A program made the position numbers and the translations under genes. Positions 30,811-34,249 of a stretch of DNA of 64,000 bases are shown piece by piece (positions within the stretch are counted from its first letter, which is position 1; every line of letters begins with the position of its first letter). The stretch comes from Ferrovibrio sp. (GTDB lineage: Bacteria > Pseudomonadota > Alphaproteobacteria > Ferrovibrionales > Ferrovibrionaceae). Under the pieces are notes generated by a model. That model was not told the origin of the DNA. It saw only the letters and a program-made list of their open reading frames with translations, and did not search any database. The DNA is taken from assembly GCF_029255545.1 (NCBI RefSeq), contig NZ_JANLJJ010000009.1, forward strand, positions 21,287-85,286, written 5' to 3'.

Positions 30811-31212
30811 ATGAAACGGCTGTCGTCTGGCGCGTTCGCCGCGCTGCTGATGCTTGGTGCATGTCCCGCCATCGCCGTCGATACGGCGCCTGGCGAGGCG
30901 GCGCTCAAAGACATGCTGGCGAAACAGAAGAGTTGGATTCTGTATTCGGAATACACCGACGCCGCTGTGCCGAGCGACAGGGCGCAGAAACTACGTTTTG
31001 AATATTACGAGCGTGATACAAAGCTGATGGGGCGCTGGTTGCTGGCTTTCGGCGGCTGCGAGTTCGAAGTCACGGTGACGGCGGATGGATTCCACTTCCC
31101 CTGGTGCCCGCCCTATAACGGTGAGCCCGCGCTCAGCTTCGATCCGGCCGACAAGCAATACCCGTTCAAGAGCCGCAACCCGCGCAAGCTGTGGCTGAAA
31201 GCTGTCGACTAG
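30811..31212 (+). CDS. Small secreted protein of unknown function
   Basis: A 133-residue protein with a clear signal peptide (KRLSSGAFAALLMLGACPAIA). A Cys near the cleavage site (LGAC) could make it a lipoprotein, although the motif is imperfect. The mature part has two further Cys (GGCEFEV and PWCPPY), probably disulphide-bonded, and many aromatic residues. I recognise no family. A very good AGGAGG site lies before the ATG. It stands alone between the cmk upstream gap and the ECF42 locus. Confidence 0.7.
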   Translation: MKRLSSGAFAALLMLGACPAIAVDTAPGEAALKDMLAKQKSWILYSEYTDAAVPSDRAQKLRFEYYERDTKLMGRWLLAFGGCEFEVTVTADGFHFPWCPPYNGEPALSFDPADKQYPFKSRNPRKLWLKAVD

Positions 31213-31292
31213 GGTCTGCACTCTTTACCGGCGCAACCACTTTTTCGACGCACCCAGTCCCGGTTGCACCGATTAAATTTCTTCAGCACCGC

Positions 31293-31319
31293 TGTCGGCC
31301 TGGGTCATACTCCGGCGTC
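31293..31319 (+). promoter_or_regulatory. Candidate ECF42 promoter upstream of the YciI-sigma operon
   Basis: TGTCGG (31293-31298) is followed after exactly 17 bp by CGTC (31316-31319), about 25 bp before the YciI start codon. The same signature recurs before the SRPBCC gene. It resembles the TGTCGA / CG(A/T)C elements reported for ECF42 sigma factors in Streptomyces, and would make the operon self-activating. Confidence 0.6.
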
Positions 31320-31344
31320 TTTATGATGAACCGGAGGGCCGCCG

Positions 31345-31719
31345 ATGCTGTATGCCATTCTCTGCTACAACGACGAAGCCGCGGTCGAGGCCTGGCCGAA
31401 GGCGAAGGACGATGCGGTGATCGCCCATCGCCGGCAGGTGACCGACCGGCTGGCCGAGGCCGGCAAACTCGGCCCGGTGCTGCGGCTGATGCCGACCACG
31501 GCGGCGACCAGCCTGCGGCACGGCCCCGATCCGCTGGTGCTGGACGGCCCCTTCGCCGAGACCAAGGAACAACTGCTCGGCTTTTACGTGATCGACTGCG
31601 CCTCGCTGGAGGAAGCCATCGAAACGGCGAAGCAGATCGGCGCCAGCGACACCGGCACCTTCGAAATCCGCCCGCTGCGCTATTTCAGCGCCGGCAGCCT
31701 GCAGAAGGAGCCGGTGTGA
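31345..31719 (+). CDS. YciI/DGPF-domain protein of the ECF42 locus
   Basis: A 124-residue YCII-related protein. It has the DGPF signature LDGPFAETKEQLLGFYVIDC from which the DGPF name comes, and the conserved N-terminal MLYAILCYNDE. DGPF proteins are the standard genomic partners of ECF42 sigma factors; their biochemical role is not settled. A GGAGG site precedes the ATG. The stop codon overlaps the GTG start of the sigma gene (GTGA), so the pair is translationally coupled. Confidence 0.88.
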   Translation: MLYAILCYNDEAAVEAWPKAKDDAVIAHRRQVTDRLAEAGKLGPVLRLMPTTAATSLRHGPDPLVLDGPFAETKEQLLGFYVIDCASLEEAIETAKQIGASDTGTFEIRPLRYFSAGSLQKEPV

Positions 31720-32960
31720 GCGAACTCGGCTGGATCGACGCGGCGCTGAAAGCGGCCCGGCCACAGGCGATGGCCGCCCTGCTGCGCTATTTCCGCGACC
31801 TCGACCAGGCCGAGGAGGCCTTCCAGGAAGCCTGCCTGCGCGCCCTGAAACACTGGCCCGGACAGGGCCCGCCGCGCGATCCGGCCAGCTGGCTGATTTT
31901 CGTCGGGCGCAACGCCGCGCTGGATGATGCGCGGCGACGCCAGCGCCAGGTCGCCCTGCCCGACGACGACGTACTGGTGGATGACGAGGATGCCGAAGCG
32001 ACGCAGGCCGAGCGGCTGGACAACAACCAGTATCGCGACGACATCCTGCGCCTGCTGTTCATCTGCTGCCATCCCGAACTGCCGGCGACGCAGCAGATCG
32101 CGCTGGCTTTGCGCATCGTCTCGGGCCTGAGCGTGGCCGAGATCGCGCGTGCCTTCCTGGTCAGCGACGCGGCGATGGAGCAGCGCATCACCCGGGCCAA
32201 GCGCCGTATCGCCGAAAGCGGCCAGGAGTTCGCCACACCCGGCGCGGTGGAGCGCGCCGAGCGGCTGGGCGCGGTGGCAGCGATGATCTACCTGTTGTTC
32301 AACGAAGGCTATGCCGCCAGCGGCGGCGAGGCGCATATCCGCCTGCCGCTATGCGAGGAGGCGATCCGGCTGGCCCGCTTGCTGCTGCGGCTGTTTCCCG
32401 CCGAGCCGGAGATCATGGGGCTGGCCGCGCTGCTGCTGTTGCAGCATGCGCGCAGCAAAACGCGGCTGGATGCGGATGGCGCCATCGTGCTGCTGGAGGA
32501 CCAGGATCGCGGGCGATGGGATGCCGACCTGATCAACGAAGGCTGCGCGTTGATCGACAAGGCGATGCGCCATCGCCGCACCGGACCTTATCAGGTGCAG
32601 GCCGCCATCGCCGCCCTGCATAGCCGGGCGAAACGACCGGACGACACCGACTGGGCGCAGATCGACCTGCTTTATGCGACGCTGGAACGCCTGACGCCAT
32701 CGCCGGTGGTGACGCTGAACCGCGCGGTGGCGGTCTCGAAGGCGCAAGGGCCGGAAGCCGCGCTGGCGTTGATCGCGCCGCTGGCCGCGCCCTTGTCGGG
32801 CTATTTCCATTTCCACGGCGTGCAGGGCGCCTTGCTGCAGCAGCTTGGCCGCGCCGAAGAGGCCCGCATCGCCTTCGACCGCGCCATCGCGCTGGCCCGC
32901 ACCCCGGCCGAAGCCGCCCATATCCGGCTCAACCTCGACCGGCTGCAGAAACGCGGCTGA
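31716..32960 (+). CDS. ECF42-group RNA polymerase sigma factor
   Basis: A 414-residue sigma-70 family factor. Region 2 is at the N terminus (DLDQAEEAFQEACLRALKHWP, then PASWLIFVGRNAALDD). Region 4 follows (LPATQQIALALRIVSGLSVAEIARAFLVSDAAMEQRITRAKRRI), with a helix-turn-helix. A C-terminal extension of about 200 residues with TPR-like helices (EARIAFDRAIALARTPAEAAHIRLN) is the hallmark of ECF42 and is thought to replace an anti-sigma factor. No anti-sigma gene is present. The GTG at 31716 is chosen for the 4-bp overlap with the YciI gene; the open frame upstream is not coding. Confidence 0.9.
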   Translation: MSELGWIDAALKAARPQAMAALLRYFRDLDQAEEAFQEACLRALKHWPGQGPPRDPASWLIFVGRNAALDDARRRQRQVALPDDDVLVDDEDAEATQAERLDNNQYRDDILRLLFICCHPELPATQQIALALRIVSGLSVAEIARAFLVSDAAMEQRITRAKRRIAESGQEFATPGAVERAERLGAVAAMIYLLFNEGYAASGGEAHIRLPLCEEAIRLARLLLRLFPAEPEIMGLAALLLLQHARSKTRLDADGAIVLLEDQDRGRWDADLINEGCALIDKAMRHRRTGPYQVQAAIAALHSRAKRPDDTDWAQIDLLYATLERLTPSPVVTLNRAVAVSKAQGPEAALALIAPLAAPLSGYFHFHGVQGALLQQLGRAEEARIAFDRAIALARTPAEAAHIRLNLDRLQKRG

Positions 32961-32976
32961 AAAATTCCAGCCTGGC

Positions 32977-33003
32977 TGTCGGAACCACTGCCCCCTGAAC
33001 GTC
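32977..33003 (+). promoter_or_regulatory. Candidate ECF42 promoter upstream of the SRPBCC gene
   Basis: TGTCGG (32977-32982), then 17 bp, then CGTC (33000-33003), in the 79-bp gap between the sigma gene and the SRPBCC gene. It has the same two elements and the same spacer length as the signature at 31293-31319; the bases immediately before the first element (GC) also match, while the spacers do not. Confidence 0.6.
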
Positions 33004-33039
33004 CTTGGGATATCGCAACCCGGACAAAGGACTCAACCG

Positions 33040-33531
33040 ATGAATGATGCCGCCAAGACCAGCAGCAACACCGCCGAACCCGGCTTTCCGCTGTCGCTGA
33101 CCCGCCTGATCGACGCGCCGGTCGAGCTGGTTTACAGGGCCTGGACCCAACATCTGGCGGAGTGGTTCGCGCCGCACCCGCTGACCACCCATCTGCAGGA
33201 AGTCGACATGCGGGCCGGCGGTCGCTTCCGTTTCACCATGAAGGACCCGAACGGCCCGGAATATCCCTGCGACGGCGTGTTCCTGGAGGTGGTCCCGGAG
33301 CATCGCATCGTCTCGACCGATGCCTTCCTGCCCGGCTGGGTGCCGAGCGGCAAGGCCTTCATGGTCGCCGTCACCACCTTTGAAAACGAAGGCGGCAAGA
33401 CGCGCTATACCGCAACGGCCATGCACTGGTCGGCGGAAGACCGCAAGGCGCATGAGGAGATGGGCTTCCATGCCGGCTGGAACCAGGTGGCCGACCAGTT
33501 CGAGGCGGTGGTGGCAAAGCTGAAGGGCTGA
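33040..33531 (+). CDS. SRPBCC (AHSA1/START-like) domain protein
   Basis: A 163-residue protein with the helix-grip fold of AHSA1-type SRPBCC proteins: FPLSLTRLIDAPVELVYRAWTQ at the start, then WFAPHP, MRAGGRFRF, and a C-terminal helix GWNQVADQFEAVVAKL. These bind hydrophobic ligands, and many are partners of ECF42 or MarR/ArsR regulators. It has its own ECF42-like promoter, so it likely belongs to the same regulon as the upstream pair. Ligand unknown. Confidence 0.86.
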   Translation: MNDAAKTSSNTAEPGFPLSLTRLIDAPVELVYRAWTQHLAEWFAPHPLTTHLQEVDMRAGGRFRFTMKDPNGPEYPCDGVFLEVVPEHRIVSTDAFLPGWVPSGKAFMVAVTTFENEGGKTRYTATAMHWSAEDRKAHEEMGFHAGWNQVADQFEAVVAKLKG

Positions 33532-33535
33532 GCCA

Positions 33536-34249
33536 TCATTCCCAGCGTTTGAGAATTGCCGCCAGGGAGCCGTCGCGGCGCAGGGAAGCCAGGGCACCGG
33601 CCAGCCGCTCGGCGCGGTCGGGCCTGGTTTTCGGCACGGCGATGTAGCGCGGCACCTCGGCCAGCGGCGGACCGAGGATATCAAGCCGCAGCATTTCGCG
33701 GCGGGCGAAATAGCTGAGCGCCTCGCGGTCGCCGATGATCAGGTCGACGCGCTGCGCTGCCAGCATGCGCACCAGCTGGCTGTAGTCGCCGGCCGCCGCT
33801 TCCCGGGTGAGGCTGGCATCGTTGTCGAAGGCGGCGCCGTAGGTGTAGCCGCGGATCGTGCCGATGCGATACCCGCGCAGATCGGTCAGGCTGCGCCACT
33901 GGATGGTGTGGTCCGGCCGGGTGGCGAACACGGTCTGGCCGGTGCGGAAGGGGCCGACCATGAAGTATTTCTCAAAGCGGTCGGCGCGTCCGACGAACTG
34001 GAAGGCGGCGTCCACCTCGCCGCGTTCCAGCAAATCCTGCACCCGCACCCAGGGCTGGGGATCGATCTGCGGCGTGGCGCCGGCGCGCTGTACCAGAGCC
34101 GCGATGATCTCGGCATCCAGCCCGGCCACGTGGCCCTGCTCGACGAAATTGTAGGGTGGGAAATTCTCGTCGCAGACGATGCGCCAGGGCTCGGCCACCG
34201 CCGGCAGCGGCAACAGCAGCATGGCAAGCATCGGGACGAGCCAGCGCAT
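33536..34249 (-). CDS. Periplasmic substrate-binding protein (SBP_bac_3 family)
   Basis: A 237-residue protein with a signal peptide (MLAMLLLPLPAVA) and a bilobed amino-acid-type binding domain: WRIVCDENFPPYNFVEQGHVAGLDAEII at the start, VGRADRFEKYFMVGPF at the ligand site, and LTDLRGYRIGTIRG at the lobe hinge. Members bind amino acids or act as stand-alone sensors. No ABC permease or ATPase genes are nearby, so it is an orphan. It ends 4 bp from the SRPBCC gene on the opposite strand. Confidence 0.85.
   Translation of the reverse strand: MRWLVPMLAMLLLPLPAVAEPWRIVCDENFPPYNFVEQGHVAGLDAEIIAALVQRAGATPQIDPQPWVRVQDLLERGEVDAAFQFVGRADRFEKYFMVGPFRTGQTVFATRPDHTIQWRSLTDLRGYRIGTIRGYTYGAAFDNDASLTREAAAGDYSQLVRMLAAQRVDLIIGDREALSYFARREMLRLDILGPPLAEVPRYIAVPKTRPDRAERLAGALASLRRDGSLAAILKRWE

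Follow-up and report, generated by a model that had tools for sequence, protein, structure and literature searches.

The window, by which we mean the whole stretch of 64,000 nucleotides that was analysed, appears to carry an ECF42 sigma locus of the Sinorhizobium RpoE10 type, in which the sigma factor would use promoters of the form TGTCGG-N17-CGTC-[C/T]T in front of a neighbouring AHSA1 gene, of at least two unlinked units and probably of its own operon; we give this reading a probability of about 0.87. The twin-promoter sigma locus is in itself a known arrangement, conserved in many related bacteria. The analysis takes the observation in the window to a small testable regulon, with four predicted promoters in this genome and, at the level of the genus, about four to six units that are present or absent together with the sigma gene. 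A published uncertainty is narrowed as well: the promoter of the target is secure, that of the sigma factor itself less so, and a conserved spacer hexamer sets them apart. ECF42 factors are widespread.

Gene content of the locus and identity of the sigma factor

Three genes on the plus strand make up the locus. The first encodes a YCII-domain protein of 124 amino acids (31345..31719; PF03795, E 3.5e-20 in the domain scan), and its stop overlaps by 4 bases the GTG start of the second, which encodes the ECF42-type sigma factor of 414 amino acids (31716..32960); the third encodes a 163-amino-acid protein with the AHSA1/SRPBCC ligand-binding fold (33040..33531; PF08327, E 6.5e-30), which is the predicted target. 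The convergent gene downstream (33536-34249) encodes a solute-binding protein according to the domain scan, and for a secreted-looking protein upstream (30811-31212) we found neither a Pfam match nor, at E values up to 1, a relative in loci L011-L109.

The sigma factor, which is of the stress type, shows the ECF architecture, with sigma regions 2 and 4 (PF04542 and PF08281) and TIGR02937 all above their cut-offs, followed by a TPR-like extension of some 200 residues at the C terminus, which comprises DUF6596 at residues 183-284 (E 9e-36) and a weak TPR_14/TPR_2 match at about 370-401, under the Pfam cut-off. A YCII gene stands beside the sigma gene here and less than 1 kb upstream of it in 78 of 80 relatives. 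None of the five proteins covered by the domain scan here is an anti-sigma factor, as the initial annotation had expected for this group and in agreement with the ECF42 literature. Together with an identity of 70-71% to Sinorhizobium/Ensifer relatives, these domains and this context make the assignment to ECF42 well supported at the level of sequence. Both this assignment and the promoter type, as first annotated, are also backed by conservation over 80 loci, by co-occurrence in the genus and, in the part of the account covered here, by the S. meliloti relative (PMC6180224).

Two matched promoter sites in the window

The matched sites that had been described before the YCII-sigma operon and before the SRPBCC gene are exact. 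The ECF42-type promoter of the operon lies at 31293..31319 (TGTCGG at 31293-31298, a spacer of 17 at 31299-31315, CGTC at 31316-31319) and is followed by TT, and that of the AHSA1 gene lies at 32977..33003 (TGTCGG at 32977-32982, a spacer of 17 at 32983-32999, CGTC at 33000-33003) and is followed by CTTGG. Both are on the plus strand, oriented in the sense of their genes, with a distance to the start codon of 52 bp for the YCII site and 63 bp for the AHSA1 site. An A/T-rich, UP-like stretch precedes the first -35 (31272..31283, plus strand) and another A/T-rich stretch precedes the second (32960..32966, plus strand). The letters GC before TGTCGG, originally included in the description, are indeed present at both sites of the window; they occur at only 19 of 131 homologous sites, and we rejected them as a part of the -35 motif. 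Also rejected was a hairpin over the first spacer, a weak terminator-like stem at 31300-31315 (three such stems were found against 2.5 expected) that, judged by eye, is not kept elsewhere.

TGTCGG occurs 57 times on the two strands of the window, and only the two sites of the locus have CGTC at 17 bp, so that what had been noted for a few of the other copies is true of all of them. First-order Markov simulations of the window (n=60) gave a mean of 0.17 TGTCGG-N17-CGTC matches and never two or more. When spacers of 15 to 19 were allowed, the window held four matches against 0.87 expected, the additional two having spacers of 15 and 18.

Conservation across homologous loci

Relatives were sought in one genome per species; 133 were found and the best 80 of the 133 were kept. 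In these 80 loci, with spacers of 8 to 26 counted on both strands, TGTCGG-N-CGTC occurred 131 times at N17 and between 1 and 12 times at every other spacing, and the reversed pattern at N17, used as a control, occurred 8 times. No site was present in 5 loci, one in 31, two in 34, three in 8 and four in 2. The YCII-sigma operon accounts for 58 of the 131 sites, and 73 are at other places. In the 120 bp before YCII, the N17 motif was exact in 58/76 loci, matched at 9/10 or better in 67/76 and at most at 7/10 in 9/76, a count that leaves out L042 and L063 as too short (L042 begins inside YCII and is an artefact in the 80-locus count). The conserved pattern extends beyond the two boxes: upstream of TGTCGG, positions -15 to -11 average 80% A+T, compared with 35% for the loci as a whole, and [C/T]T directly follows CGTC in 125/131 sites; both sites of the window fit on both counts. 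The form TGTCGN, 17 bp, CGTC was found where ECF42 promoters are expected, before the target genes.

The genes behind the 73 sites outside the operon were examined as 85 candidate reading frames, up to two per site, for 72 of the sites, the remaining one having no complete frame. The families recovered were Glyoxalase (27), Glyoxalase_6 (13), AHSA1 (14), DUF899 (7), YCII (7), SnoaL_3 (4), DUF4440 (4) and others, with the caution that two families such as Glyoxalase and Glyoxalase_6 may be counted on a single protein. Where an AHSA1 relative was present the motif lay ahead of it in 13 of 15 loci, and the motif was also kept when the second gene belonged to another family (VOC, DUF899, SnoaL) or was divergent from the operon. 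The layout is thus that of a fixed YCII-sigma operon accompanied by an interchangeable second gene, which has the same promoter in front of it and is divergent in some loci.

This bears on the possibility that the YCII-sigma operon merely has AHSA1 as its third gene, the match in front of AHSA1 adding little. The intergenic gap between the sigma and AHSA1 genes is 79 bp, the AHSA1 promoter begins 16 bp past the sigma stop codon, and the terminator scan found no terminator-like site between the two; AHSA1 may thus be transcribed from the operon promoter as well as from its own, and the two separate transcription units of the initial annotation are not proven. Against AHSA1 being no more than a third gene of the operon stand the divergent second genes, which are out of reach of the operon promoter, the retention of the motif before second genes of other families, and the S. 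meliloti counterpart of AHSA1, which has a mapped start of its own (PMC6180224). We consider this explanation quite improbable, and a promoter proper to AHSA1 is the reading that we retain.

Promoters elsewhere in the genome and in the genus

The genome-wide scan for TGTCGG-N17-CGTC that had been suggested with the first description yielded two further plausible promoters, before a second YCII gene (G000:C49:15019, L114) and before a PF06983 VOC gene (G000:C90:1275, L115), and was noisy for the bare motif. In the 4.11 Mb of this genome the bare motif occurs 10 times; four occurrences precede genes, all of families typical of ECF42 loci, and the other six are located within coding sequence or across the start codon of an opposed gene; by itself, then, the bare motif lacks specificity. 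Nor was N17 enriched over N16 or N18 genome-wide (10 of the 66 matches at N16-18). With [C/T]T added, five sites remain and four of them are plausible. The fifth (G000:C92, L116) has the extended motif over an opposed start codon and lacks an upstream A/T tract, and we counted it as chance.

The extended motif TGTCGG-N17-CGTC-[C/T]T follows the sigma gene through the genus. Five genomes that carry it (G000, G001, G002, G005, G006) have 5, 5, 7, 4 and 8 sites, whereas the five without it (G003, G004, G007, G008, G009) have 0, 0, 0, 0 and 0; the backward control gave 1, 4, 0, 2 and 1 (total 8) with the sigma gene and 1, 1, 3, 3 and 1 (total 9) without. Of the five genus mates without the sigma gene, three have genomes that are only 72-87% complete, so the missing sigma gene could in those three be an assembly gap. 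Judged by eye from their flanks, 25 of the 29 extended sites precede a plausible target; the other 4 fall within coding sequence or on an opposed start. Recurrent targets are the YCII-sigma operon, AHSA1, the PF06983 VOC gene and a second YCII gene (5 genomes each), an MFS transporter (3) and Polyketide_cyc2 (2), the second YCII of this genome being only 41-42% identical to that of its genus mates. The VOC gene has a 10/10 site in all five sigma-bearing genomes; G007, which lacks the sigma gene, has retained the VOC gene (79% identical) and shows no motif upstream of it, the best match in 400 bp being 7/10. Both promoters of the locus are kept in the four sigma-bearing genus mates (L091-L094), where the AHSA1 gene starts 33 bp after the second CGTC.

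We asked whether the two sites could be chance matches in G+C-rich DNA. The frequency of the bare motif in the genome, mostly away from plausible promoters, would be in line with it; the expectation of 0.17 for the window, the N17-specific conservation in 80 loci and the genus co-occurrence all speak against it, and it is already refuted by the fact that the genus keeps both sites. We therefore treat chance as negligible.

Two side observations were made on the genus sequences. An MFS transporter gene stands behind an ECF42-type site (CGTCTTTA), near the VOC target, in G001:C81, G002:C33 and G006:C1 (L151, L155 and L162, with Pfam run on L162 only). In L091, L093 and L094, an additional TGTCGG lies about 12-13 bp upstream of the YCII -35; the window has no such copy.

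A conserved hexamer in the spacer of the sigma operon promoter

The spacer of the operon promoter contains CATACT (31306..31311, plus strand) at register 13-18, a feature that promoter alignment and register counts showed to be specific to YCII-sigma promoters. A CATACT-like hexamer (at least 4/6) was found at this register in 30/58 YCII-sigma promoters compared with 2/73 other promoters, and shuffled spacers (n=2000) gave a mean of 1.7 and a maximum of 6 such matches. Matches of at least 5/6 occurred in 27/58 at register 13-18 and in none at any other register from 6 to 17. The survey drew on the window and on YCII-sigma promoters in L011-L109 and L182-L228: further loci had the hexamer in 24/33, the window's own row included, and TGTCGA-type promoters in 0/22. 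As related sequences are not independent, we attach no probability to these counts. In the ECF42 promoter literature, of which our coverage is partial, we found no mention of the hexamer, which may nevertheless be in print.

The operon promoter thus differs from the target promoters by the hexamer and may be controlled differently. One explanation, which we find doubtful, is that the sigma factor drives its targets and not its own operon, which another holoenzyme or regulator would start from a site that overlaps and of which CATACT is the mark, TGTCGG-N17-CGTC being weak, competed or conditional there. In S. meliloti, SMc01151 (YCII) carries the same motif and was unchanged on RpoE10 overexpression, and 5'-RACE places its 5' end across the motif (PMC6180224); this and the confinement of the hexamer to a single register of one promoter class are in favour. 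On the other hand, the ECF42 motif is kept before the operon in 67/76 loci, which is hard to explain if it were unused, and CATACT is missing from the Sinorhizobium/Ensifer promoters (L062, L077), which belong to the group that gave the negative result. Moreover, TTGACA-like partners 15-19 bases upstream were no clearer with CATACT than without it, and a search around CATACT in the window gave no sigma-70-like site; a plain sigma-70 reading of the hexamer was rejected as unsupported, there being no -35 partner.

A related proposal, which we put forward tentatively and with more doubt than belief, is that promoters of the TGTCGG kind form two classes, those of targets and those of sigma operons with a fixed CATANT, and that, through the hexamer, transcription of the sigma operon is started or gated by something different from the ECF42 holoenzyme, uncoupling sigma supply from output. 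If true, it would account for targets, and not the sigma operon, responding to sigma overproduction. Our preferred reading remains that of a sigma factor which probably also transcribes its own operon.

Proposed activity of the sigma factor

We propose that the active sigma factor would direct RNA polymerase to TGTCGG-N17-CGTC-[C/T]T promoters, direct binding in this host being presumed. It very probably switches on the AHSA1 gene next door, as predicted here, sigma dependence having been seen with the S. meliloti counterpart; it would also drive the PF06983 VOC gene and the second YCII gene elsewhere in the genome. Activation of the SRPBCC gene, part of the initial annotation, is well supported by the conservation in 80 loci, the genus co-occurrence, and the overexpression and start mapping in S. 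meliloti (PMC6180224). Autoregulation of the YCII-sigma operon, from the same annotation, is probable and in some doubt: the full motif stands before YCII in most relatives, and against it are the unresponsive YCII gene of S. meliloti and the CATACT difference. As overexpression there raised the ligand-binding gene and not YCII, there is good support for activation of the neighbour, and autoregulation is unproven. The sigma factor has no anti-sigma factor among the genes scanned; we expect its activity to depend on the long C-terminal part (DUF6596/TPR), perhaps in partnership with the YCII protein. The VOC, AHSA1, SnoaL, DUF899 and MFS targets suggest the handling of small, perhaps toxic, molecules.

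Residue 155 of the sigma factor and the promoter type

Among 185 distinct sigma sequences, 65 of them without a clear site, Glu155 (in MEQRI, region 4.2) occurred 91 times with TGTCGG and never with TGTCGA, and Ala, Gly, Ser or Thr at this position occurred 23 times with TGTCGA and once (L072) with TGTCGG; TGTCGG was also the site of a distant factor that has Gln here (L263). This is a correlation that follows clades, with L072 an exception inside its clade, and we do not claim E155 as the determinant of the sixth -35 base. The ECF42 factors of Streptomyces venezuelae reportedly (work attributed to Liu, 2018, and Wu, 2019) have TGTCGA as their -35, not TGTCGG as here. In one genome (G021), a TGTCGG-type promoter comes right after a sigma gene of the TGTCGA clade (L109:2704), and a TGTCGG-type factor (L097) is present as well, a possible cross-wiring of two ECF42 loci.

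Comparison with known ECF42 systems

The locus shares its group and genetic context with Pseudomonas putida ECF-10 (PMC6180224, PMC8999054); ECF-10 is tied to oxidative and antibiotic stress and to biofilm formation in the accounts covered here. With Sven_0747 and other ECF42 factors of Streptomyces venezuelae, the window locus has in common a long TPR-type C-terminal extension, which there governs activity, and YCII neighbours; control of ECF42 factors is described as acting through the C-terminal part, and YCII proteins were suggested to take part (PMC8999054). A Xanthomonas ECF42 factor is active in S. meliloti (PMC10880074).

Also among the closest known systems is the RpoE10 locus of S. 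meliloti, which we compared by description, and its relatives in S. kostiense and Ensifer aridi (L077, L062) by sequence. Unlike in the window, CATACT is absent from the YCII promoter of S. meliloti, the mapped 5' end of which overlaps the motif. RpoE10 too has a further unlinked target, SMb20475, a glyoxalase-like gene (PMC6180224), and the unlinked targets differ between the two systems. In the part of the account covered here, SMc01149, beside rpoE10, encodes a hydrophobic-ligand domain and was up on RpoE10 overexpression; its mapped promoter is TGTCGG-N17-CGTCCTTGG and its mapped start, as read from the printed sequence, lies nine bases after CGTC (PMC6180224). The order of the S. meliloti locus (SMc01151-SMc01150, SMc01149-SMc01148) is that of the window, with YCII, sigma factor and then a gene for a ligand-binding domain, and TGTCGG-N17-CGTC stands before both units (PMC6180224).
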